Part shown: one piece after another, positions 4,529-33,346 of the stretch | Numbering within the stretch: the first letter of the stretch is position 1 | Layout of the letters: each line of letters begins with the position of its first letter | Assembly (NCBI RefSeq): GCF_900089945.1 | Contig: NZ_FLQY01000212.1 | Span: 1-64,000, forward strand | Source of the DNA: Candidatus Propionivibrio aalborgensis | GTDB taxonomy: Bacteria; Pseudomonadota; Gammaproteobacteria; Burkholderiales; Rhodocyclaceae | Length of the DNA stretch: 64,000 nucleotides | Direction of reading: 5' to 3' | The notes under the pieces: model-generated | Databases searched by the model: none | What the model was told of the DNA's origin: nothing | The model's input: only the letters and a program-made list of their open reading frames with translations | Made by a program: the position numbers and the translations under genes

Positions 4529-5813
<1,285 letters not shown>

Positions 5814-6017
5814 AATCTTTCAGGCAGGCGATAGCTGGCGGGGACCGGGAGGGCCGGCAAGCGGGGTACCCATTGATGGAAAATCCAGAGTCAATGGCGC
5901 CAAATTAGAGTGCTCAGGCGTTTTGAGGCGTTGGCCCGCCTAACTCAGCGACGGCCACTTGGTGCCAGCATCGCCAGGCGCGCTAGGCCCGGAAATCGAG
6001 GTTGCCAAGGAAACAAT

Positions 6018-6034
6018 TGTCGGAAATTCTTACA
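6018..6034. promoter_or_regulatory. 17-bp palindrome upstream of PEP-CTERM gene (possible PrsR-type activator site)
   Basis: The bases read TGTCGGAAATTCTTACA, which fits the symmetrical pattern TGTnnGAAnTTCnnACA in every fixed position. A degenerate copy (TGTAAGACATTGATTCA) lies at 6064-6080. The palindrome ends 63 bases before the -24 element of the sigma-54-type promoter at 6098-6113, a distance suited to an enhancer-binding protein. PEP-CTERM genes in EPS/exosortase organisms are known to depend on RpoN and the PrsK/PrsR two-component system, so PrsR is the natural candidate; that link is inference. The remaining bases of the 389-base gap after dapB hold nothing else that I recognise. Confidence 0.5.
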
Positions 6035-6097
6035 CTTGGAGGTAATCGGACGCTCGTACTCTTTGTAAGACATTGATTCAATGTGTATGCGCATTTT

Positions 6098-6113
6098 TGG
6101 CTCGTTTCGTGCT
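6098..6113 (+). promoter_or_regulatory. Sigma-54-type promoter of the PEP-CTERM gene
   Basis: The sequence TGGCTCGTTTCGTGCT has GG (6099-6100) and GC (6111-6112) at exactly the -24/-12 spacing and matches TGGCAC-N5-TTGC at eight of ten positions. Transcription would start near 6123, leaving a leader of about 80 bases before the ATG at 6203. Confidence 0.6.
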
Positions 6114-6202
6114 TCTTTCTAATCGGCGTTTGAGAACCTGCGACTGCCGATGGCTGATGTGTCTGTTCTTCAAGTTCTCCTCAACGAACAACTGGAGGTT
6201 CC

Positions 6203-6799
6203 ATGAAACGCCTATTGAGTGCCATCACGATGGCAGCGACGATGCTTTTCGTCGCACCGCTCGCACAAGCGACAATCATTACCTACTATGCCGATCTGAG
6301 TGGACTGAATGAGTCTCCCTCAAATGCATCACCGGGAACCGGGAGCGCGACAGTGATCTATGATGATGCGCTGCATACTATGCAAGTCAAGGCGACGTTT
6401 TCCGGCTTGATTGGTAACACCACCGCTGCACACATTCACTGCTGTACATTGGCTCCCATGACCGGAACAGTCGGGGTAGCTACACCAACGCCGACCTTCC
6501 CTGGTTTTTCTTTGGGGGTGACGAGCGGAACCTACGACACGACTTTCGACATGACCTTGGCCTCTTCGTACAACGCGTCTTTCGTCACGGCCAGCGGTGG
6601 AACAGCGGCTGGTGCTGAAGCGGCCTTGTTCGCGGGCATGTCGGCTGGCAAAGCGTATTTCAACATTCATACAACTTTTGTCCCAAGCGGTGAGATACGC
6701 GGCTTTCTTGCTGCTCAGGCGGTCCCGGAGCCGGGCAGTCTGGCACTGATTGGCCTTGGCTTGGCCGGACTCGCCTTTAGGCGTCGCAAGAAGGCCTAG
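6203..6799 (+). CDS. PEP-CTERM sorted CHRD-domain exported protein
   Basis: A 198-residue secreted protein. It has a signal peptide (MKRLLSAITMAATMLFVAPL, cleavage near AQA). A CHRD-type domain follows, with ADLSGLNESP, then AAHIHC and later AYFNIHTTFVPSGEIRGFL. The C-terminus is VPEPGSLALIGLGLAGLAF followed by RRRKK. That tail (VPEP motif, hydrophobic helix, Arg/Lys cluster) is the PEP-CTERM signal cut by exosortase (EpsH/XrtA family), normally linked to exopolysaccharide and floc formation. No exosortase gene is in the window, so the sorting enzyme must be elsewhere. The ATG follows a strong site, GGAGGTTCC. A single-gene transcript is likely, given its own promoter and terminator. Confidence 0.9.
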   Translation: MKRLLSAITMAATMLFVAPLAQATIITYYADLSGLNESPSNASPGTGSATVIYDDALHTMQVKATFSGLIGNTTAAHIHCCTLAPMTGTVGVATPTPTFPGFSLGVTSGTYDTTFDMTLASSYNASFVTASGGTAAGAEAALFAGMSAGKAYFNIHTTFVPSGEIRGFLAAQAVPEPGSLALIGLGLAGLAFRRRKKA

Positions 6800-6817
6800 T
6801 TTCAACGGCCACCGAAC

Positions 6818-6847
6818 AGACCCTGCATCGTCGGGGTCTTTCTTTTT
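6818..6847 (+). terminator. Rho-independent terminator after the PEP-CTERM gene
   Basis: AGACCC (6818-6823) pairs with GGGTCT (6834-6839), followed by a T-rich tract (TTTCTTTTT). The following bases up to 7093 contain no gene that I can support. Confidence 0.75.
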
Positions 6848-7093
6848 GCCCAACTCAATCGTGTTTCTGTGTTGCGCGGGCGCGTATCCTGCGTCGTCGT
6901 GTTTCCCCTTGTGATCAAACCAGGCCGTCAGATGATATGGCCACGGGATTGTTCGCCCCTTGGCGGCGTGTCCAGCGTTCTCCCGGTCTGTTGCTGTCAG
7001 TGGCAGCCCGAGTGATTGCGGCGTATGGTTCGGTGAGACAATATGTACTTCATAATATCGCCTGAACGGACGACGAGAATCGCTGGAGAGAAT

Positions 7094-8029
7094 ATGGCGG
7101 ATGATGGCAAATACGTTTTGGATGAAATCGATGAGAAGACTCTGAATGAGTTGGACCAGCTCCTGTTGACGGAGGATGTTCTGCAATACAAGAGTTGGGA
7201 TCATTTTCGTCGGGCTACGGGATATCCAGAGTCATTTCTCAGCCCGAGCACAGCACGGCGACCTGCAGGCCCCATCTACGCTCCAATCCAGACTCCTATC
7301 GAATCGGATGCCGCGCAATCAGCGCGTGATGCGGTAAAAACCTCTGGATTTCTCGCTGAACTTGAGCGGGAAGTTGCACAACTCCATCAAGGAACAAGCA
7401 CCCAACAGGATCAACTCCGGCGGTCTCAGCAACTGCATGAGGCACTGTCCCGCATATTTTCGTTTCTGCACCAGATGTCTCACCACGCAAACGAGTTGCA
7501 GCCGGAGATTTCACGATATTATCGCCTTGATTCTCAGGCTGCCTACACGAAGCTTCGCTGGCAAGGTGCGTTCACCGATTCCCGCAAACAGGATTCATCC
7601 GACAAGTCGTTTCTGTCTCACGTCAGTTTTCGCGTGCGGCTGGTTGCGGCGCAACCCCTCACCTTGACACGGCGGTGGCACCAGTTGGAAGTGCTGAAAC
7701 GTGATCTGCACACACTCAATCTTCGTGCCTTGGACGATTCCGTATTTGACGTGAAAACCGAGCAGGAGCTAATAGAAGTGCAATTGGCGCCTGATTTTCC
7801 GGTTCAGATAAGTTTCAAGGGCAACTACAAGGAGCACCGCATTGACGTCTTGAGCCGCAACCTTGAGGGGTTCTACATTTCGGCCTTTATCCTTGAAATA
7901 GACCAGGTGAATCAAGCCCTGCTGGATGGATTGGGGCGTTTTCTTCTGTCTCGTATTGATGTACTGCCTGAAGCATTCCATCGCATCAACTACATACCGC
8001 AAACGGAAACGATCTACAGAACTTACTGA
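7094..8029 (+). CDS. Protein of unknown function, 311 residues
   Basis: I do not recognise this family. I start at ATG 7094 because it follows GGAGAGAAT; an in-frame ATG at 7043 would add 17 residues without a ribosome binding site. There is no signal peptide or membrane segment, so the protein is probably cytoplasmic. Residues about 5-45 are acidic and helical (DEIDEKTLNELDQLLLTEDV). A coiled-coil-like stretch (ELEREVAQLHQGTSTQQDQL, about 95-130) comes next, then His-rich helices (HQMSHHANEL), then a mixed alpha/beta C-terminal half. It stands alone between a terminator and a tRNA gene on the other strand, so context gives no clue. Confidence 0.6.
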   Translation: MADDGKYVLDEIDEKTLNELDQLLLTEDVLQYKSWDHFRRATGYPESFLSPSTARRPAGPIYAPIQTPIESDAAQSARDAVKTSGFLAELEREVAQLHQGTSTQQDQLRRSQQLHEALSRIFSFLHQMSHHANELQPEISRYYRLDSQAAYTKLRWQGAFTDSRKQDSSDKSFLSHVSFRVRLVAAQPLTLTRRWHQLEVLKRDLHTLNLRALDDSVFDVKTEQELIEVQLAPDFPVQISFKGNYKEHRIDVLSRNLEGFYISAFILEIDQVNQALLDGLGRFLLSRIDVLPEAFHRINYIPQTETIYRTY

Positions 8030-8327: not shown

Positions 8328-9554
8328 TTAGTCTGCCTTGTCAAGGCCGAAAGCCTTGTGCAGGACACGCACGGCCAGCTCAAGATATTTTTCCTCGATA
8401 ACGACGGAAATCTTGATTTCAGATGTCGAGATCATCTGGATGTTGATGCTTTCTGATGCCAGCGCACTGAACATCTGACTGGCTACGCCGGGGTGCGAAC
8501 GCATGCCGACACCGACCGCCGACACCTTGCAGGTCTTGTTGTCACCGACGACGCCGCGCGCATCCAGTTTGGTCTTGACGGTTTCCAGCACCCCCAGTGC
8601 CTTCGTGTAGTCGCCGCGATTGACAGTGAATGAGAAGTCCGTCGTTCCGTCGTGGCCGACGTTTTGAATGATCATGTCAACGTCGATATTGGCCTCGGCT
8701 ATCGGGCCGAGGATCTGGTAGGCGATACCGGGGCGATCGGGTACTCCCAACACGGTGAGTTTCGCTTCATCGCGATTGAAGGCGATTCCGGAGATGATCG
8801 GTTGTTCCATTTTCTTTTCTTCCTCAACAGTGATCAGGGTGCCTTCGCCTTCGTCGTCGAAGCTTGAAAGCACCCGCAATTTGACCTTGTATTTGCCGGC
8901 GAACTCCACGGAGCGGATCTGCAAGACTTTTGAGCCCAGGCTGGCCATTTCCAGCATTTCTTCAAATGTGATGGTGTCAAGTTTGCGCGCCTCCGGCACC
9001 ACCCGCGGATCGGTGGTATAGACGCCATCGACGTCGGTATAGATTTGGCATTCATCGGCTTTCAACGCAGCAGCGAGGGCAACCGCCGACGTGTCCGAAC
9101 CACCTCGGCCAAGTGTCGTGATGTTGCCATTCTCGTCGGCGCCCTGAAACCCGGCAACAACAACGACATTGCCTTCGGCCAGATCCTTGCGGATCTTCTC
9201 GTCGTCGATTTGAAGAATACGTGCTTTGGTGAAGGTGCTGTCAGTCAGCACGCGTACTTGCGCGCCGGTGTAGCTTTTCGCCTTCAGACCTTCTTCGTGC
9301 ATTGCCATGGCCAGCAGAGCAATGGTGACTTGCTCACCGGTTGAGGCAATAACGTCGAGTTCCCGTGGATCGGGTTCGGCAGAAATCTCCCTGGCCAGCC
9401 CGATCAGGCGGTTGGTTTCGCCTGACATGGCTGAGGGAACCACAATAACGTCATTCCCTTGGGCTTTCCAGCGCGCTACTCGCCTGGCCACGTTTTTGAT
9501 ACGATCCGTCGAGGCAACCGACGTACCTCCGAATTTCTGAACTATCAGTGCCAT
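8328..9554 (-). CDS. lysC: Aspartate kinase
   Basis: A 408-residue enzyme that phosphorylates aspartate, the first step towards lysine, threonine, methionine and diaminopimelate. The N-terminal kinase domain opens with [11 protein letters not shown]. It also shows the [16 protein letters not shown] and [13 protein letters not shown] motifs of the amino-acid kinase fold. The last ~150 residues hold two ACT domains ([20 protein letters not shown] and [20 protein letters not shown]), the usual site of feedback control by lysine and/or threonine. Length fits the single-function aspartate kinase typical of betaproteobacteria. tRNA-Ser follows on the same strand. Confidence 0.96.
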
Positions 9555-9676
9555 GCAAAATCCAACTATGGGTCATGAAAGCTCGCGATTCTAACCCAAT
9601 GTCGAGTTGAAACGTAAGCGCGATCCTTTCTTGCCGACTCAAACCCTTGTAGTCACATGGTCTTTAAAAATGCTAC

Positions 9677-9706
9677 TTGCAAATCGATATGTAGCTGTTC
9701 TATACT
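9677..9706 (+). promoter_or_regulatory. Sigma-70-type promoter for the XRE gene
   Basis: TTGCAA (9677-9682) and TATACT (9701-9706) are separated by 18 bases. The transcript would begin near 9713, about 90 bases before the ATG at 9803. No stable hairpin was obvious in that leader. Confidence 0.55.
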
Positions 9707-9802
9707 GTGATCACCATAGGAAGTCATACACTCAGTAGTATCGACCGGGGTCGAAAAAACCTCGATTTCTCCATGGCACGCTTGCCAAACGAAAGGATCG
9801 CT

Positions 9803-10105
9803 ATGAACACTTCAAAATCCACGGACAAGTCCGAGCCCCGCGAAATTCGTCGCAAGCTTGGTTTGAACCAACAGCAGTTCTGGTCAAAAATTGGCGTTAC
9901 GCAAAGCGGTGGCTCGCGTTACGAGAGCGGTCGCAATATGCCGCGCCCGGTACGTGAGTTGCTCCGCCTTGTTCACGTCGAGCAGATAGATATCCAGCGT
10001 ATCAAGCGCGAAGACATGGATGTTATCGAGTATTTGAAGAGTGAAGAATCCGAACTCTACAAGACACTGAAGAAATCCGCCAAGGCCAAGAAGAAGACGG
10101 GTTGA
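9803..10105 (+). CDS. XRE-family HTH regulator, 100 residues
   Basis: A small DNA-binding protein. The helix-turn-helix occupies about residues 12-60 (REIRRKLGLNQQQFWSKIG, then VTQSGGSRYESGRNMPRPVR), a lambda-repressor/XRE arrangement resembling antitoxin-type or MqsA-like HTH domains. The C-terminus is a basic Lys-rich tail (KKSAKAKKKTG). I start at ATG 9803, which follows GAAAGGAT; the longer frame from 9707 starts inside the promoter. It has no toxin partner next to it: the neighbours are lysC (divergent) and a radical SAM gene (convergent, 11 bases between stops). Target genes cannot be inferred. Confidence 0.75.
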   Translation: MNTSKSTDKSEPREIRRKLGLNQQQFWSKIGVTQSGGSRYESGRNMPRPVRELLRLVHVEQIDIQRIKREDMDVIEYLKSEESELYKTLKKSAKAKKKTG

Positions 10106-25308: not shown

Positions 25309-28215
25309 TCAATGCAGCGCCAACGGAAAATCCATTCCGTTCGAGCTGACCACCGGGTACTGTTCTTCCGAACGATAGCGCCGCGTGAGTTCGGGCATTG
25401 CTTGTTCGACAAAGACCATCAGCTTGCGAGCGGTTACATCTTTTTCGCCGCTTGCTGCCTTACCCATGAGGCCTTCCAGCAGGGTATAGGTGAATACTCC
25501 GTGTCCCAGCGCATCCAGTTCCGAGGCCGGTTGATCCTTGGTGGTCGCCGCGATCATGTGGGTGCCGGTCGAGCGCGACAGTTGGGCAAGAGCGCGTCGT
25601 TCTTCGAGCCCACGGAAGCTGATTGTCGCAGCACCCGATTTGCACGCGTCGATTATGACCATCAGCTTTTGCGCCGGGATCATTTTTACGGCTTCTGCCA
25701 ATTCGCGCGAGGAAATCCCGTCACGTTGCAATACTTCCGGGCGTTCAGGTGTCACCAGATCGTAAGGAATGAACATCCAGTCTTCATTCAACGTCTCGCC
25801 GTGACCGGCGAGATATACAACCACAACATCGTCCGGCCGGGCCTCGCGCAATTCCTTCAGGCGTGAGCGAATATTGGTCTGCGTGGCATCGTTGTTATAG
25901 ATCTCGTCAACTTTGACATCCTTGAACAGTCGACCGTAGTTATTACGAAAGAATCGGGCCATGCCTTGCGCATCGGGTACCGAGAAACTCAGGTTCAAGA
26001 CGGCATTGCGGTAGGAATTGATGCCTACCACGAGGACATACAAGCGTGCCCGTTGATCACTGGCTGCATACTCGATCGCGCGTTCGATCGCTTCCGATTC
26101 AGTTCGGTCGGAACCGAGTGCAAGTGCGCGGAAGACATTCTTGCCGGCTTCAAGGGGCACGTCGTAAACCTTGATGACATGTCCCTTGCCCGCGGTGCGG
26201 GTCGTTTTGATCGCAGCCGTGTCGGCAACGATCTTGCCATTATGATACAAGCGTATCTCGTCGACTCCGCTGCCGCGGTCGTTGGCAACGATTTCAAGGC
26301 GCAGACGCCCATTCTTGGCCAGCTTTTCCGCTTCCGGCGTAAGCAGGGTCACGCTCGGCGGCAGATTGATACCTTTGCGCAGGTCAGCCATTTTGGGTGG
26401 CGGGGAAGCTGGAGACGCTTTCGGCGGCGACAAGACAGCGGCGATGGCAGGCGGGTTGTAATAGCGCTCGCTGAAGCGCGCCACCGGCAAGAATTCGGCG
26501 GATTGATCAGGACCGCGATTGACGTGCCAGCCGACCAAGCCATCACCGTCCTGGCTGGCGGAAAAGCGTCCGTCCGGCGTCCACATCACCCAGCGTTGAC
26601 GGTCTTCATGCGGAAACAGCGCCAATTGCTCAGCACCGTCCTGGCGTCGGTACCAGCGTATGGTTCCGTCGCCGAGTGCGGCGACTACCCAGGGCTTCGC
26701 CGGGTCGGAATTGTCGATATCCACCGCCCAGCAGGGCGCCGGCGTCGCGGTTCGCCACAATTCGCGCCCGTTTGCATCGAAAAGTCTGACGAACCAGTTG
26801 CTGCCCAGGGCTGCCGCATCGCCGGCCGCTGAAACCGATGTCGAAACGCTCATCTCCCCAGGTTCCAGGGCGACCGCCTGGCCATTGATCAGGGGTTTCT
26901 GCGAATCCTTCCACTCGCTGACCTCCAGGCCCTTGCCGCCAACTGCCTGCTTGGGAAGCGCTGCGTCCTGGAGAATCAGCACCTGATTGTCGAGGTCAAA
27001 CAGCGCCGGATGCCGCCCGCCAAAGCCGTACGCAAAGCCGATGGCATGACGCGCTTGCTGTATGCCGAAGCCAGACCAGTTGGCCCGAAAATCAGCCAGC
27101 GGCACGGTCTGACGATAGCTGACTGCACCCTTGGCATCGACGATTCCCCAGCTTGCGTCCGCAGCGGCAAATACCACGCGCTGATCGGGAAGCGCAGCGA
27201 GACCGGTGACGCTATCGCCGGCGACCGTGACGTCCGTGAACGCGCCGCGGCCGCCATCGTCCCAGCGTCGCAAAACGTGCTCGGACGCTCTTTTTCGCGA
27301 AGTGCCGGCAGCATAGAGTGTATTGCCATCCGGCGACCAGGCGACGCTGGTCAGATTCCCGTCGGAGAGGCCGCGGATGTCGGGCGAATAGGCCGGCGTC
27401 AGATCATCGGCTTTCACTACCGCGACGCGCCCCGCATCCTCGAATCCAACCGCCAGAAATTTCCCGTCGGGTGAAAAACGTGCGGCAAAGGGGTGCTGGC
27501 CGCCGCTGACGCGTGTTTTGGCGATCAAGCTTAGTCCGCTCGCCGTAATTTCGTACACGCGGACGTACCCGTCATACGCGGTACTCGTCAGTCGGCGGCC
27601 GTCGGAACTAAAACTGACGCTGTACGAATCACCGCCATAGGCGCTGTCTTCACCCAACAGCGCCGCACTCGACCAGGCATTGCGGCTGGTGAAAACCCGG
27701 ATGCCGTGGCCGCCCCAAAGTGCGACTGCCAGCATTTTTCCGTCCGGCGAAAAGGTCAGATGGTTGATCACATTGGGCATCCCGCTCAGGCGCAGGCGCA
27801 TGGCGCCGCTTTCCCTCCGGAAAATATAGACGTCGTTGTCGGCACTCCAGCCGCCGACTGCGGCCAGATCGCCTTGCGGCGTTAGCGCCGCAGCGTAGAG
27901 CTTGCCCTCATTCCCCGGACCGATCGGGGGCCGCAGGACGCCGATCGGCTGGCCGTCTGAAAGCCGCCACAGCCGCGCGGTCTTGTCGTCGGACGCCGTG
28001 AGCATGATCTGTCCGTCGGCGTCCACCGCAAGGCTGCGAATCGACGCCGTGTGCGTACCAGTTTCGATGCGCAACAACGGCGCGTTTTCAGCCGCCCCAG
28101 CAAGCAGGTGGGCGCTCAACAGGATCGCAGTGACGACGCGGCGTAGCCAGAAGCGGCTCACGGATTGCCCACTACGCAACAAGGCTACAACCGACCGAGA
28201 TATGGATACAGTCAT
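25309..28215 (-). CDS. Exported WD40-repeat caspase-family (C14) peptidase, 968 residues
   Basis: I start at ATG 28215, 16 bases past the stop of the OmpA-like gene. A signal segment (RRVVTAILLSAHLLAGAAEN) precedes a long beta-propeller region of WD40-type repeats (for example HTASIRSLAVDADGQIMLTA and VAWSPDGNTLYAAG). After a proline-rich linker and a Big/CARDB-like section comes a caspase domain (DQRARLYVLVVGINSYRNAV). Its catalytic pair is intact: His near 804 in YLAGHGE and Cys858 in IIDACKSG. Such proteins usually cut after basic or acidic residues, but the substrate cannot be read here. The signal peptide implies a periplasmic or surface site, unlike cytoplasmic bacterial caspases used in phage defence. 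Confidence 0.85.
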   Translation of the reverse strand: MTVSISRSVVALLRSGQSVSRFWLRRVVTAILLSAHLLAGAAENAPLLRIETGTHTASIRSLAVDADGQIMLTASDDKTARLWRLSDGQPIGVLRPPIGPGNEGKLYAAALTPQGDLAAVGGWSADNDVYIFRRESGAMRLRLSGMPNVINHLTFSPDGKMLAVALWGGHGIRVFTSRNAWSSAALLGEDSAYGGDSYSVSFSSDGRRLTSTAYDGYVRVYEITASGLSLIAKTRVSGGQHPFAARFSPDGKFLAVGFEDAGRVAVVKADDLTPAYSPDIRGLSDGNLTSVAWSPDGNTLYAAGTSRKRASEHVLRRWDDGGRGAFTDVTVAGDSVTGLAALPDQRVVFAAADASWGIVDAKGAVSYRQTVPLADFRANWSGFGIQQARHAIGFAYGFGGRHPALFDLDNQVLILQDAALPKQAVGGKGLEVSEWKDSQKPLINGQAVALEPGEMSVSTSVSAAGDAAALGSNWFVRLFDANGRELWRTATPAPCWAVDIDNSDPAKPWVVAALGDGTIRWYRRQDGAEQLALFPHEDRQRWVMWTPDGRFSASQDGDGLVGWHVNRGPDQSAEFLPVARFSERYYNPPAIAAVLSPPKASPASPPPKMADLRKGINLPPSVTLLTPEAEKLAKNGRLRLEIVANDRGSGVDEIRLYHNGKIVADTAAIKTTRTAGKGHVIKVYDVPLEAGKNVFRALALGSDRTESEAIERAIEYAASDQRARLYVLVVGINSYRNAVLNLSFSVPDAQGMARFFRNNYGRLFKDVKVDEIYNNDATQTNIRSRLKELREARPDDVVVVYLAGHGETLNEDWMFIPYDLVTPERPEVLQRDGISSRELAEAVKMIPAQKLMVIIDACKSGAATISFRGLEERRALAQLSRSTGTHMIAATTKDQPASELDALGHGVFTYTLLEGLMGKAASGEKDVTARKLMVFVEQAMPELTRRYRSEEQYPVVSSNGMDFPLALH

Positions 28216-28231
28216 CACGACCATTTCCGAG

Positions 28232-29509
28232 TCATTCGCGGCAAGCGAGCAGGCGGAATTCGACCCGCCGATCGAGTGCATCGCTGGCATTGTCCTTTCC
28301 AGTCCCGATCAGGTTTTCACGCGACCCGTAACCGGCAGCGATCAGACGCTTATCCAGGGATGGTGTCTCATCGACCAGTCGCTGACGGACGTATTCGGCG
28401 CGCAAGGCGGACAGGCGCTCATTGACGGATTCCGGCCCGCCACGACTGGCGTGGCCAATGATTTCCATGCACGAATTGCGCTGCGCCGCATGCTGCGCAA
28501 GGCTCTTCAGCCACATATCGTAGGGTTCCTTGGCGGTGCCGCCGTGTAGCGAGGTTGCGCCGGGACGGAAGGTAAACACAACAGAGAGCTTGCCCGCATC
28601 GAGTCCGAAGTCGACAATTCTGCCGAATGCCTGAGCGCTCTCCTGGCGGCGCCCAAGCTTACTGGCCGCCAGATAGTTTCCTGTCAGCGTGCGAAATTGC
28701 TGTCCGGCAGGCGTGGCCCCGGCTTTGACAAAGAGCGCCAGTGCTTCCTTGAAATGTGCGCTGTTATAGGCGCGGATGCCTTCGTTGATCAGTGCGTCGG
28801 CAACCAATGAATCGATATAGGCAGGGCTGACTTCGCCGTCCAGCTTGGAAGCCTGGCACGTTGCGACATAAGCCTCGCCGGTCGGATCCCGCGTCCAGAC
28901 AGGAGCATCACTGAAGAATGGCAAGGGTGCTGAATCGACATTTTCCATACGCGAACGCGCTACGGCCTTGCTGACGATACGCCTTGACTTGAGGTCGACG
29001 AGAGCCAGGCAGAATCGATACGATTCGCGTACGCCTTCCGTTTTACCCAGCTGATTGATCGGCGTGAAGGTGCCGACGACCAGCAAGGGCGATTGCCCAA
29101 GATTGGCTGCCGTAAACGGCTTGACCTCGAACTGGGGATATTTCGCCTTCACCAGATTGGCAACATTGGTTTCCATTTTCCGTGTCGCGGCAGTTTGCAT
29201 GCGCGACACGCCGTCGATCAACGGGTCGATGACGACTGGCCGACGCATTGTCTTGTCCGCTGGATCGCCGGCCAACTCCGCCTTGGAAAACAGAGTATTG
29301 GCGGCCTTGAGGACGGCTTCATCGTGCGGCAGAATTGGGATTTGCAGGATCGGGGAAGGCGGTGGGGGTGCCGGGGGTGCGGCTTTTTGCGCCGACTGAT
29401 CGGGGTCAGCGGGCATTGTAGTTTCAGTGGAGCAGGCGCCCAGCAACGCCAGGATCACCAGGTACGGCATAGCAACCAAACTGCACTTCGACGAAATCTT
29501 GTTATTCAT
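28232..29509 (-). CDS. OmpA-family lipoprotein, 425 residues
   Basis: Start ATG 29509 follows ACGGGAGAGACAG. The signal peptide has a lipobox (LALLGACST). The middle (VVIDPLIDGVSRMQTAATRK to about residue 210) resembles FlgO-like or curli-assembly proteins that build repeated envelope structures. A short TPR-like helical part follows (AYNSAHFKEALALFVKAGAT). The last ~120 residues are an OmpA C-terminal domain (MEIIGHASRGG, SALRAEYVRQRL, LIAAGYGSRENL, RRVEFRLL), which binds peptidoglycan. The protein thus probably ties the outer membrane to the wall. It is translated together with the WD40-caspase gene, 16 bases apart. Confidence 0.83.
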   Translation of the reverse strand: MNNKISSKCSLVAMPYLVILALLGACSTETTMPADPDQSAQKAAPPAPPPPSPILQIPILPHDEAVLKAANTLFSKAELAGDPADKTMRRPVVIDPLIDGVSRMQTAATRKMETNVANLVKAKYPQFEVKPFTAANLGQSPLLVVGTFTPINQLGKTEGVRESYRFCLALVDLKSRRIVSKAVARSRMENVDSAPLPFFSDAPVWTRDPTGEAYVATCQASKLDGEVSPAYIDSLVADALINEGIRAYNSAHFKEALALFVKAGATPAGQQFRTLTGNYLAASKLGRRQESAQAFGRIVDFGLDAGKLSVVFTFRPGATSLHGGTAKEPYDMWLKSLAQHAAQRNSCMEIIGHASRGGPESVNERLSALRAEYVRQRLVDETPSLDKRLIAAGYGSRENLIGTGKDNASDALDRRVEFRLLACRE

Positions 29510-29666
29510 CTGTCTCTCCCGTATCACGCCGGTGACGAAAAGACCTTCGGCAGCAGGTAGCACTGTAGTTGGCAAGCATTAGAGCGCGCAAACCCAGCCG
29601 AGTTCAGTCGTTTGTCAAATGGGCAAGCAGCGTATTACGAAACAGACCGCCCATTGAGGCTGAAGC

Positions 29667-30999: not shown

Positions 31000-31239
31000 T
31001 CAGTCTCCCGTGGCAGTATTTTCGGTGTTCAAAGGATAGACCACAACCGTTTGCTTGTGCGTTTTCGAGCGGGAGAAATTCAGCGTCCCCTGGAAGCAGG
31101 TCGTGCTTTCGCGCTGATTTCCGGAGGCTGCGGGCTTGGCAGGCACGCTGAAGATTCGCTCGTCGAATGCGATGCCTTCCCGGACCCGACTGCTTTCTAC
31201 TCTCCGGTCTCGCGCCTGAAGGATACTGCCAGCGCGCCG
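31000..31239 (-). other. Open frame between META and DUF3014 genes, no normal start
   Basis: After a TAA at 31240-31242 this minus-strand frame stays open until the TGA at 31000-31002, 3 bases before the DUF3014 start codon. It lies in the -1 frame relative to the META gene and overlaps its last ~14 codons. The first usable start is GTG at 31146 (48 codons). The translation contains protein-like stretches (REGIAFDERIFSVPAK and TTCFQGTLNFSRSKTHKQTV). It is either a lost 3' end of the META gene or a chance open frame. Confidence 0.3.
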
Positions 31240-32003
31240 TTAGCCGTGCGCAACTCGAGCCGGTCACCGTTCAGCCGGAACGTGGCGGTCGTCTGTAGTG
31301 CTTCGAGGTAAAGTCGTTCCTGATTCATCATCCCATCGGGTTCGGCACAGAACCTGCGCGTAGCGCCCGCCGCGCCGATGCGCATGCTTGGGCCGTCCAG
31401 CGTATAGGCAGCAAAATACTGGTTGCAGCCGGCGCTTCCGCTCACCCGACCGTTAGTGCCAAAGCTGGCGCTGATGCGGCTGCCCAGAAGCAGACTGACG
31501 GCGCCCTGTTTGCCGTTGTTGTAGAGCACGACTTCCCATGTCGTGCCGACCGGAGATGTGACCGCCGGTACAAACGTGGCGAGCAGGTTGCCGGCATCGT
31601 CTCGCAGGCTGAGCCGGTCCCGGTCGAGCGCAAAACGCGCTGCTCGCTGCAAGGCTTGGCGATAGTCACGAGCTTGTGCCTCAAGCTGATCCGGGCAGGC
31701 CATCAAGGTGCCAGCCAGATTTTCGCCAATCCGGATCGAGTCGTCTCCTGAGGTGTGGTTTCCTTGGTACTGGTTACACCCGTCGTTCCCGCCGATACGA
31801 TTGTCCGAGCCGAAATTGAGCGTCACAGGAGGGGTTTTCGCGACTGCACTGCTTCCGAGGGCTTGCAAGACCCAGTGCGTGCCTGCGAGGGGTGGATTGC
31901 TGCTACGCTCGCTCGTGGTCGGGCGTGGAGTGGGTGCGCAAGCCAGCATCAACAGTGTAGCCAACAGGACTGCCGCCGTTCTTGTGTGCATAAAGGCGCT
32001 CAC
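31197..32003 (-). CDS. Lipoprotein with two META/HslJ domains, 268 residues
   Basis: The signal peptide ends in LLMLAC, a lipobox. Two META domains follow. The first (about 35-135) has GTHWVLQALG, GGNDGCNQYQG and LAGTLMACPD. The second (about 145-262) has GTTWEVVLYNNG, GSAGCNQYFAAY and ATRRFCAEP. META domains are found in heat-shock protein HslJ and in secreted proteins that bind small molecules or stabilise the envelope. The GTG start at 32003 overlaps the TGA of the HD-CBS gene (GTGA), which suggests coupling; ATG 31991 would also keep the lipobox. See the open frame at 31000-31239 for a possible missing C-terminus. Confidence 0.8.
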   Translation of the reverse strand: MSAFMHTRTAAVLLATLLMLACAPTPRPTTSERSSNPPLAGTHWVLQALGSSAVAKTPPVTLNFGSDNRIGGNDGCNQYQGNHTSGDDSIRIGENLAGTLMACPDQLEAQARDYRQALQRAARFALDRDRLSLRDDAGNLLATFVPAVTSPVGTTWEVVLYNNGKQGAVSLLLGSRISASFGTNGRVSGSAGCNQYFAAYTLDGPSMRIGAAGATRRFCAEPDGMMNQERLYLEALQTTATFRLNGDRLELRTANGALAVSFRRETGE

Positions 32004-33346
32004 TGTGGCCCGAGTTCCGACAGACGCTGGGTGATGCGAATGATCTGCACCCAGTCGTGGGTAGCGATGTCTTGGGAGTGTGCGAGGTGATTGCGCAGCG
32101 ATTCCAGCTCCTTGGTGAGTAGTTTGGCGGTCCGCTTCGATTTTATGCCCAGGGCCTCCAGCGCGGCCTGGTCCTCAAGCAAGATCTGCATCTTGTCGGA
32201 AAATTGCAGGCAGTCGATCAAGTTGCTATGCAAGTTGCGGCGCTCCCGTTCCTTCTGCAACTCCCACGCTTTCGTCAGGCGGGCGGGGGCCAGTAAAGCT
32301 TCCCAGGTGTTGCCGGGGAAGCACCGCTCGATGAATTGGACCAGCCCCATTTCGTAGAGGGTGATGGCGCCGAACAGCCACATGCGCACGACCGGCTTGT
32401 TAACGGCGTTACGAGTGATAACCCCGACGATCGTATCGAACATGGAGACGAAACAGTGTTCGTGCCGTGTCAGGATGCCAAACACATCGGTGAGCGGCGC
32501 GCTGCCATCCAGCACCTGATCGGCCGAGATGTGCTGCATTAGCTGCCCACTGGGCGCAGAGTCGCCGGCCGCCATGTCGGTCAGGCGCAGGTAGCCTTGG
32601 ACTGTGCCATCGACGCGGATGCCGGCGATGTTCAGATGCCGAGATTGCATGACGCGTGCGACAGCGCTTTGCGCCTTGTCGTCGTCGAAAGAGAGCAGGG
32701 GTTCGACGATATCGCTTGCGCTGAAGGTCTCCCGAAACAAGCGCACGATCTGCGGGTTGTCCAGGTGTGGGATCAGGGCCGCCAGACTCGCAGATGCCGG
32801 TGGCGGTACGGTCCTTTGCAAGGCCCTCAGCTTTTCCTGCGTGCTGTCATGTAGCGCGCGCGCCTGCCTCATCAATTCCGGCTCGCCTTCACCGAGTACC
32901 GCCAGCAGCGCTTCCATTTCCTGCAGATAGACCTGGGCGAAGCGCGGGTCGTGGTGCGCAATGTCCTCGCAGTTGTCGATCAGGTCCGCGAGCTTGATCG
33001 TCTTGGCGCGAGGCGAGGCGTGGGCGGTGTGGCGGCGGTCGATTTCCTTGCGCACGGCACGGTTTCCGTCGCTGGGCCGGCTTACGTCGGTCAGCGCCTC
33101 GACCAGCCCCGCAACCGGTGCGCCAAATTCGCTCTCGACGTCCTCCATGGTGGCTGGCGTGTCTTCGACCACGTCGTGGAGCCATGCCGCAGCTATCATT
33201 TCCTCGTCATGGGTGACCGAGGAAACCAGGCGCGCTACGCGCTCCAAGTGCACTCGATAGGGCTGATCGTTGTACTTGCGGCGCTGGTCGATGCGCTGAT
33301 GTGCGCTCGTTGCGAAGGTTCTGGCACGTTCTATCAACTCGGACAT
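32000..33346 (-). CDS. HD (alarmone hydrolase-like) - CBS - HEPN fusion protein, 448 residues
   Basis: The N-terminal ~185 residues match the hydrolase half of RelA/SpoT proteins: His33, His57-Asp58 (AAWLHDVVEDT), Glu61-Asp62 and Asp121 (IKLADLIDN), with spacing very close to the known (p)ppGpp hydrolase site. No synthetase domain is present. The middle (about 215-330) resembles a pair of CBS domains (VARVMQSRHLNIAGIRVDG; RHEHCFVSMFDTIVGVITRN). The C-terminal helices end in ESLRNHLAHSQDI, whose RNHLAH (Arg418 to His423) fits the Rx4H catalytic motif of HEPN ribonucleases. The domain calls are from motifs alone. It is first in a minus-strand gene series and divergent from tpiA. Confidence 0.7.
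   Translation of the reverse strand: MSELIERARTFATSAHQRIDQRRKYNDQPYRVHLERVARLVSSVTHDEEMIAAAWLHDVVEDTPATMEDVESEFGAPVAGLVEALTDVSRPSDGNRAVRKEIDRRHTAHASPRAKTIKLADLIDNCEDIAHHDPRFAQVYLQEMEALLAVLGEGEPELMRQARALHDSTQEKLRALQRTVPPPASASLAALIPHLDNPQIVRLFRETFSASDIVEPLLSFDDDKAQSAVARVMQSRHLNIAGIRVDGTVQGYLRLTDMAAGDSAPSGQLMQHISADQVLDGSAPLTDVFGILTRHEHCFVSMFDTIVGVITRNAVNKPVVRMWLFGAITLYEMGLVQFIERCFPGNTWEALLAPARLTKAWELQKERERRNLHSNLIDCLQFSDKMQILLEDQAALEALGIKSKRTAKLLTKELESLRNHLAHSQDIATHDWVQIIRITQRLSELGPQ

Follow-up and report, generated by a model that had tools for sequence, protein, structure and literature searches.

A predicted RSH-type alarmone hydrolase joined to a CBS pair and a Swt1-like HEPN domain: a candidate nucleotide-gated ribonuclease in Candidatus Propionivibrio aalborgensis

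What could a bacterium gain from placing an HD domain of the RelA/SpoT homologue (RSH) type, a CBS pair and a HEPN domain in one polypeptide? The question is raised by a gene of Candidatus Propionivibrio aalborgensis, which is located at 32000..33346 on the minus strand of a stretch of 64,000 nucleotides of contig NZ_FLQY01000212.1 (the window), starts with ATG and encodes 448 amino acids followed by a stop codon. In an earlier note, made by eye from the letters of the window, the gene was described as a fusion of an alarmone-hydrolase-like HD domain, a CBS-like pair and a HEPN domain. These three domain calls were borne out by the profiles HD_4 and spoT_relA, by the fold of the CBS pair and by the profile HEPN_Swt1, respectively, and the presence of HD, CBS and HEPN parts in one gene is confirmed as real and far above chance; the note's interpretation of the fusion is supported in part. 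The best explanation, to which we assign a probability of roughly 40%, is a HEPN ribonuclease that is gated by a nucleotide and has an alarmone hydrolase of its own in the same chain. The recurrence of the three-part protein, with intact active-site residues, in many distant bacteria suggests that it may serve as a compact stress or anti-phage switch.

The HD domain comprises residues 1-178 (32813..33346, minus strand) and was assigned by Pfam, NCBIfam and phmmer searches and by superposition of the predicted model. Pfam HD_4 matches the window protein at residues 8-150 (E 5.1e-18), and the first part of the NCBIfam RelA/SpoT model spoT_relA matches it with 1.3e-20. A phmmer search against solved structures returned MESH1-type proteins first, with 3nqw, a metazoan SpoT ortholog, at 1.9e-17, followed by Rel and bacterial small alarmone hydrolase (SAH) enzymes. 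The HD model superposes on MESH1 with a Z score of 23.4 over 166 residues at 1.7 Å, and also on RelH (Z about 23), bacterial SAHs and SpoT. Active RSH hydrolases share a set of catalytic residues, namely R, H, HD, ED, D and N. In the window protein, His33, His57-Asp58, Glu61-Asp62 and Asp121 are found at the positions that had been claimed for them and are arranged as in Rel and MESH1. A synthetase domain is indeed missing, as Pfam at E<=1 finds only HD_4, HD and HEPN_Swt1 in the 448-residue protein.

Relatives of the protein were collected by a pattern scan of 84,980 species genomes, for which a three-sequence alignment of the CBS-HEPN half served as query; at least 163 relatives were obtained, and the best 80 of 163 were kept. 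A scan of the same collection with the single window protein yielded no relatives. In 71 of the 80 kept loci, the whole chain of HD, CBS and HEPN parts is encoded in one frame; counts out of 72 given below refer to these 71 full-length loci plus the window and counts out of 81 to the 80 kept loci plus the window. The nine loci that are not full length include five without an HD part (L082, L089, L098, L100 and L106), three that are cut by a contig end (L034, L090 and L058) and one unclassified locus, L070, whose frame starts after a stop, 50 bases away from the end of its contig. HD_4 matches 72/72 members at E<=1 and spoT_relA 72/72 at E<=0.01. R23, K24, H33, H57, D58, E61, D62, K118, D121 and N125 are identical in all 72 aligned full-length sequences, and the catalytic motif at residues 57-62 (His57-Asp58 and Glu61-Asp62; 33161..33178, minus strand) is invariant in 72/72. 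Since the scan was anchored at PxVRMWLF- and DCLQxSDK-type patterns, the invariance seen at residues 318-325 and 378-385 is subject to bias; neither the HD residues nor R418/H423 of the HEPN part served as anchors. The 60 invariant columns comprise 38 in the HD part, 19 in the HEPN part (10 of them outside the scan anchors) and three in the CBS pair, and this concentration in HD and HEPN is as expected if both enzymes are used. The ratio of nonsynonymous to synonymous substitution rates (dN/dS) lies between 0.10 and 0.26 (15 pairs, six genes), and the gene is under purifying selection. A chance motif or an assembly artefact was also considered and was rejected in view of this ratio and of the recurrence of the one-frame chain (71/80 loci) in unrelated assemblies.

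Based on family membership, it is quite likely that the HD part is an alarmone hydrolase. This reading of the HD part, with RSH-type residues intact throughout the fused family, is what the present analysis adds. The SAH of M. extorquens strongly prefers (p)ppApp, and its activity towards (p)ppGpp is negligible (PMC7644958; here and below, statements on cited papers refer to the parts of their text that were available). Because SAHs differ in preference, (p)ppGpp cannot be fixed as the HD substrate from the sequence. Stand-alone HD relatives among named records are located on plasmids and phages and reach 55% identity, and a solo HD protein from a genome of the same taxonomic family is closer still (59%). 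Over 152 residues, the HD part shares 44% identity with an SAH-like protein of Salmonella phage SSU5, which, being the sole match in that phage, is presumably the PaSpo of PMC9712102. In an HD tree of 71 rows, which was built with a quick method, lacks about half of the fused rows as well as two 'cut' rows and has 13 of 68 branches starred and several long branches, the fused HD domains are placed close to SAHs of phages and plasmids and to a few solo ones, and the state 'fused' needs two changes; the tree is weak evidence and would be compatible with a single origin of the fused HD. The HD domain resembles PaSpo of SSU5, Mesh1 and RelH in that it carries the RSH hydrolase residues; however, SAHs are described as HD only (PMC3153485), whereas the present chain continues for about 270 residues through CBS and HEPN.

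The HD domain is followed by a linker of residues 179-203 (32738..32812, minus strand), in which the predicted local distance difference test score (pLDDT) is below 50 at residues 180-186, and by the CBS pair at residues 204-317 (32396..32737, minus strand), which was assigned by Pfam CBS matches of family members and by its fold. Pfam CBS (PF00571) matches 37/72 members at E<=1 (best 3.1e-6), and model residues 204-328 superpose on CBS pairs, best on 2yzi (Z 13.5, 121 residues, 3.5 Å) and also on 2rif with bound adenosine monophosphate (Z 12.3). A CBS-HEPN profile compared with structures gave weak matches to 9zni (E 0.0085) and 9znf (E 0.075), named CBS domain-containing proteins. Within the pair, Ser219 is kept in 81/81, Asp221 in 80/81, Arg244 in 79/81 and Arg312 in 78/81 sequences, which is consistent with a phosphate-bearing ligand. 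The motif of CBS nucleotide sites includes an acidic ribose-binding residue; in the first repeat, the window has Asp257, and 55/81 sequences have Asp and 9/81 Glu. At position 277, where the fused family has Gln in 71/72, the five HD-less relatives have Q, Q, N, A and S, and at position 294, where the fused family mostly has Arg (53/72), they have E, E, K, E and K. These differences are suggestive of communication between HD and CBS, with five HD-less sequences compared, two of which share a gene neighbourhood.

Residues 318-448 (32003..32395, minus strand) form a Swt1-like HEPN domain, assigned by Pfam and by a model of the HEPN part. Pfam HEPN_Swt1 matches the window protein at residues 328-442 with an E-value of 7.5e-6 and 26.7 bits, 0.8 bit below the curated cut-off of 27.5, and it matches 72/72 members at E<=1 (best 3.3e-6). 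The RNHLAH motif pointed out in the earlier note corresponds to Arg418-Asn-His-Leu-Ala-His423 (32078..32095, minus strand) and fits the HEPN Rx4H motif, of which R418 and H423 are invariant in 81/81 sequences. The HEPN-only model has a pLDDT of 85.7, and the top 14 VIA rows obtained with it (Z 6.0-6.8) are mostly HEPN toxins and AbiF, with HEPN-MNT toxins (Z 6.8, 93 residues, 3.3 Å), AbiF (Z 6.6, 131 of 133 residues, 3.6 Å) and a Cas nuclease among them. A search of the PDB with the HEPN sequence gave no credible match. The C-terminus thus matches HEPN by profile, with modest support from the fold. Based on these families, the CBS and HEPN parts are likely to form a CBS-gated ribonuclease. The PADLOC profile PDC-M34B matches 45/81 HEPN domains (best 6.4e-7), and weak Csm6/Csx1-type matches were obtained as well; the window protein itself gives 0.0078 over its full length and 0.0012 with the HEPN domain by itself, and it is not counted as a member.

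The architecture is already in print. A survey of HEPN domains from 2013 lists a Swt1-type HEPN fused to 'CBS and HD' (alr3009), which is marked active, and a protein of Pelobacter propionicus (gi 118580987), and it was suggested there that CBS/HD-HEPN proteins might answer ligands to regulate RNA stability (PMC3710099). The earlier note's statement that SAHs and CBS-HEPN proteins are known separately is therefore not quite right. Compared by description, the survey's proteins and the window protein have HD, CBS and a Swt1-type HEPN in one chain; in the available text of the survey, however, the HD part is called an HD phosphohydrolase only, and the words ppGpp, RelA and SpoT do not occur. Among the papers listed by searches of the open-licence PMC literature, none was found that links the HD of a CBS/HEPN fusion to alarmone hydrolysis. 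More recently, the CBS-HEPN protein DS-11 was reported to stop phage (DefensePredictor, 2026, PMC13092281). Its defence function needs a CBS tyrosine predicted to contact adenine as well as the HEPN catalytic residues, and an adenine ligand was proposed, the ligand itself being left for discovery (PMC13092281). By description, DS-11 has CBS and HEPN in one chain, as is the case here; an HD part is not mentioned for it in the available text. A natural fusion of CBS-HEPN to an alarmone hydrolase would be a clue to the ligand class of CBS-HEPN defence and makes the question directly testable.

When a relative like DS-11 was looked for in E. coli, the HD-less CBS-HEPN gene L128 had no DNA match in E. 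coli genomes, and protein searches with the HD-less L128 and L129 gave matches only on haloarchaeal plasmids. In three inspected records of five (L025, L026 and L027), the plasmid-borne CBS-HEPN proteins comprise 262-284 amino acids, lack an HD part and are homologous by profile, with a probability of 99.6% over 220 columns and with the Rx4H motif aligned. Upstream of these three genes lies a conserved divergent gene of 115-118 amino acids with 51-55% identity to the first copy; it has no Pfam match (L025 copy scanned) and is a possible partner of the CBS-HEPN protein. The gene upstream of L128 (15-1382) encodes 455 amino acids and has no Pfam match at E<=0.01; judged by eye, its product resembles a PD-(D/E)XK nuclease.

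How might the three parts work together? We infer the activities, the ligand and the direction of control as follows. The protein would dimerise, probably through its CBS and HEPN parts, and the CBS pair would bind a phosphorylated, probably adenine-containing nucleotide signal that arises in stress or phage infection. Once the nucleotide is bound, RNA would be cleaved at the released Rx4H site of HEPN. From (p)ppApp or (p)ppGpp, being either that signal itself or a nucleotide linked to it in metabolism, the HD part would take off the 3'-pyrophosphate, so that the ribonuclease would be switched off after signal synthesis stops. The protein would thereby be an alarmone counterpart of the self-limiting Csx1/Csm6 ribonucleases, which degrade their own activator. 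HEPN ribonucleases with their own off-switch do exist (PMC7293037, PMC10897365), and the Csx1/Csm6 enzymes include a fusion of ribonuclease and ring nuclease (PMC7293037). The proposed shared logic consists of a ligand-sensing domain, a HEPN ribonuclease and a signal-destroying activity in the same chain; however, Csx1/Csm6 use a CARF domain and cyclic oligoadenylate, whereas a CBS pair and a probable 3'-pyrophosphohydrolase are found here, and the likeness is one of analogy, not of membership. A loose precedent is the CBS protein DarB, which switches off the Rel hydrolase but engages the SYNTH domain (PMC9848473). Provided that hydrolase and CBS-gated ribonuclease both hold, it is slightly favoured, judging from the fusion, that the HD part limits its own ribonuclease. 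The most specific version, in which the CBS pair receives (p)ppApp or a similar signal with a 3'-pyrophosphate, HEPN is the effector and HD destroys the signal, is doubtful. If it were true, stringent-response hydrolases would be linked directly to HEPN immunity and a CBS-type receptor would be paired with its own signal hydrolase. More generally, the RSH superfamily, in which small hydrolases are described as consisting of HD alone, would gain a class with an attached effector that occurs in several phyla, and stress alarmones would be tied to RNA-cutting immunity.

Several findings weigh against a nucleotide-gated ribonuclease with its own hydrolase. The whole-chain model has a mean pLDDT of 90.7 and a predicted template modelling score of 0.56, so that the relative placement of HD, CBS and HEPN is not predicted. 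The window protein has no Pfam CBS match, and in the second CBS repeat it has Ala314 where 47/81 sequences have Asp. The VIA Z scores of the HEPN part are middling, and the tool warns that such scores may reflect a mere common helical arrangement; an unrelated chain appears at rank 15 (Z 5.8), and the remaining rows do not exceed 4.8. With Foldseek alone, no match to the HEPN part falls below E 1, and the HEPN call thus rests on Pfam and the middling VIA Z scores. The five relatives with CBS-HEPN and no HD indicate that the core device can do without HD. Finally, a comparison of gene neighbours at the 81 loci, in which the family gene was fixed and the other genes were longest open reading frames, some of them spurious, revealed no conserved operon partner, with no neighbour family common to more than six of the 81 loci and the flanks not scanned against a defence library; the genomic context thus gives no hint of a signal-making partner.

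The protein can also be read as a guard against toxic pyrophosphorylation. In that case, the HD part would detoxify (pp)pApp or repair 3'-pyrophosphorylated tRNA produced by incoming toxSAS-type toxins or injected synthetases, the CBS pair would sense the unrepaired nucleotide and HEPN would act as a second line only when HD is overwhelmed. The SSU5 SAH, to which the HD part is 44% identical, neutralises toxSAS toxins, and some toxSAS antitoxins are hydrolases that undo the pyrophosphorylation made by the toxin (PMC9712102). The synthetase domain RelA_SpoT (PF04607) was looked for in 17 genomes, of which 15 carry the fusion and two the HD-less form, and 28 matches were found in 15 of them; the two genomes without a match have a completeness of 86% and 72%. 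Because 27 of the 28 matches lie in long RelA/SpoT-type frames of at least 707 amino acids, a co-encoded toxSAS is not evidently the counterpart of the HD part; the remaining match is partial and lies in a 350-residue frame of genome G779, and both matches of the Propionivibrio genome lie in long frames (741 and 769 amino acids). The lack of a clear self-encoded toxSAS in the 17 genomes fits a defence against foreign toxins, which would need none. However, no connection of the gene with loci for secretion or toxins is seen, the synthetase scan covered 17 genomes only and the sequence leaves the direction of control unconstrained; a guard of this kind is considered unlikely.

The distribution of the family bears on a further alternative, a housekeeping regulator of starvation, in which the CBS pair would read the adenylate energy charge, HD would trim basal (p)ppGpp and HEPN would adjust RNA stability as energy falls. 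By record title, full-length members belong to Pseudomonadota, Nitrospirota, Deltaproteobacteria/Desulfobacterales, Synergistales and Verrucomicrobia; the HD-less L100 and L106 belong to Chloroflexota and Acidobacteriota, respectively. Of the 199 genomes searched from the taxonomic family, a single one other than that of Propionivibrio encodes a full-length relative (46% identity), and with the CBS-HEPN half as query, one match besides the own genome was obtained among 300 genomes of the order. Matches were found in 18/369 genomes of the class sample and in 3/398 of the phylum sample, each including the own genome, and some of the class-sample matches are divided between two frames (G751, G546) or truncated (G641). 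None of 381 plasmid and 326 phage records with a match has one place covering 80% of the protein, and the CBS-HEPN half has no phage match and no confirmed relative among viral contigs. A housekeeping role would agree with the tpiA and nuo-type genes that adjoin the gene in the window (recognised by eye), with a phosphoglucose isomerase gene beside the HD-less L082 and an NhaA gene beside L057, and with the ligand-controlled RNA stability proposed in the 2013 survey (PMC3710099). The patchy distribution, however, is unlike that of a core regulator, with one match among 300 order genomes and one full-length relative among 199 family genomes besides the own, and the CBS-HEPN protein DS-11 protects against phage (PMC13092281), which makes this alternative improbable.

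It is very unlikely that the HD part acts on another substrate such as NADPH or 3'-phosphoadenosine-5'-phosphosulfate (PAPS) and that the protein couples a cofactor or sulfur-nucleotide state to RNA decay, with no alarmones involved. Among the closest structures are indeed an NADPH-containing human MESH1 (5vxa) and a complex of MESH1 (D66K) with PAPS (9chy), and many carriers bear the names of sulfur bacteria in their record titles, which we take to reflect a sulfur metabolism. Metazoan Mesh1 has been reported to hydrolyse NADPH, and a bacterial SAH to be promiscuous (PMC9765508); however, NADPH was seemingly not hydrolysed by Mesh1, MESH1 and the M. extorquens SAH under the assay of PMC7644958, and among named records, HD/SAH proteins of phages and plasmids are the closest relatives of the HD part. 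Least probable of all is a regulated alarmone hydrolase whose HEPN part is a catalytically silent module for RNA binding or dimerisation: inactive Swt1-type HEPN domains are on record, eukaryotic Swt1 included, and the window match lies just under the Pfam cut-off, but R418 and H423 are invariant in 81/81 sequences and the CBS-and-HD member alr3009 is marked active (PMC3710099).

With regard to gene copies, 32000-33346 is the only full-length copy found in the Propionivibrio genome. Another HD/SAH-like stretch of this genome (L003; G000:C34:5103-5540) contains an in-frame TGA and is possibly a decayed small alarmone hydrolase.

The neighbours that recur beside the family gene reflect synteny in two sets of related genomes, which are those of symbionts or of the Sedimenticola type, and one ABC ATPase family is present in five loci at scattered distances. 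At the 66 loci for which both neighbours were called, the upstream gene is on the same strand in 33 cases and divergent in 33. In seven loci from tubeworm and Thiodiazotropha symbiont lineages (L048, L049, L051, L053, L059, L060 and L066), an upstream gene of one family overlaps the fusion gene or lies within six bases of it; the copy in L048 encodes a hybrid histidine kinase with a receiver domain. At L057, an NhaA-type antiporter gene (8801-9967) overlaps the end of the fusion gene by four bases, and L058 (813-1862) shows the same start sequence and overlap. At L044, a gene for a sodium/hydrogen exchanger with a TrkA_N domain (5805-7403) precedes the fusion gene. At L082 (6200-9375), the HD-less CBS-HEPN gene has the phosphoglucose isomerase gene on one side and, on the other, a gene that encodes an HD domain separately (Pfam HD 1.3e-11), an arrangement that looks as though the neighbouring gene supplied the HD function.

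In the window itself, the HD-CBS-HEPN gene is followed by a lipoprotein-like gene with two META-domain stretches (31197-32003, minus strand), whose GTG start overlaps the HD-CBS-HEPN stop by four bases and which could be translationally coupled to it; a gene of this kind was not recognised when the neighbours at the other loci were looked at by eye. Further along the minus strand, 25309-28290 encodes a protein of 993 amino acids with WD40 repeats and a C-terminal caspase domain (Peptidase_C14), which adjoins the gene for an OmpA-domain protein at 28232-29575.

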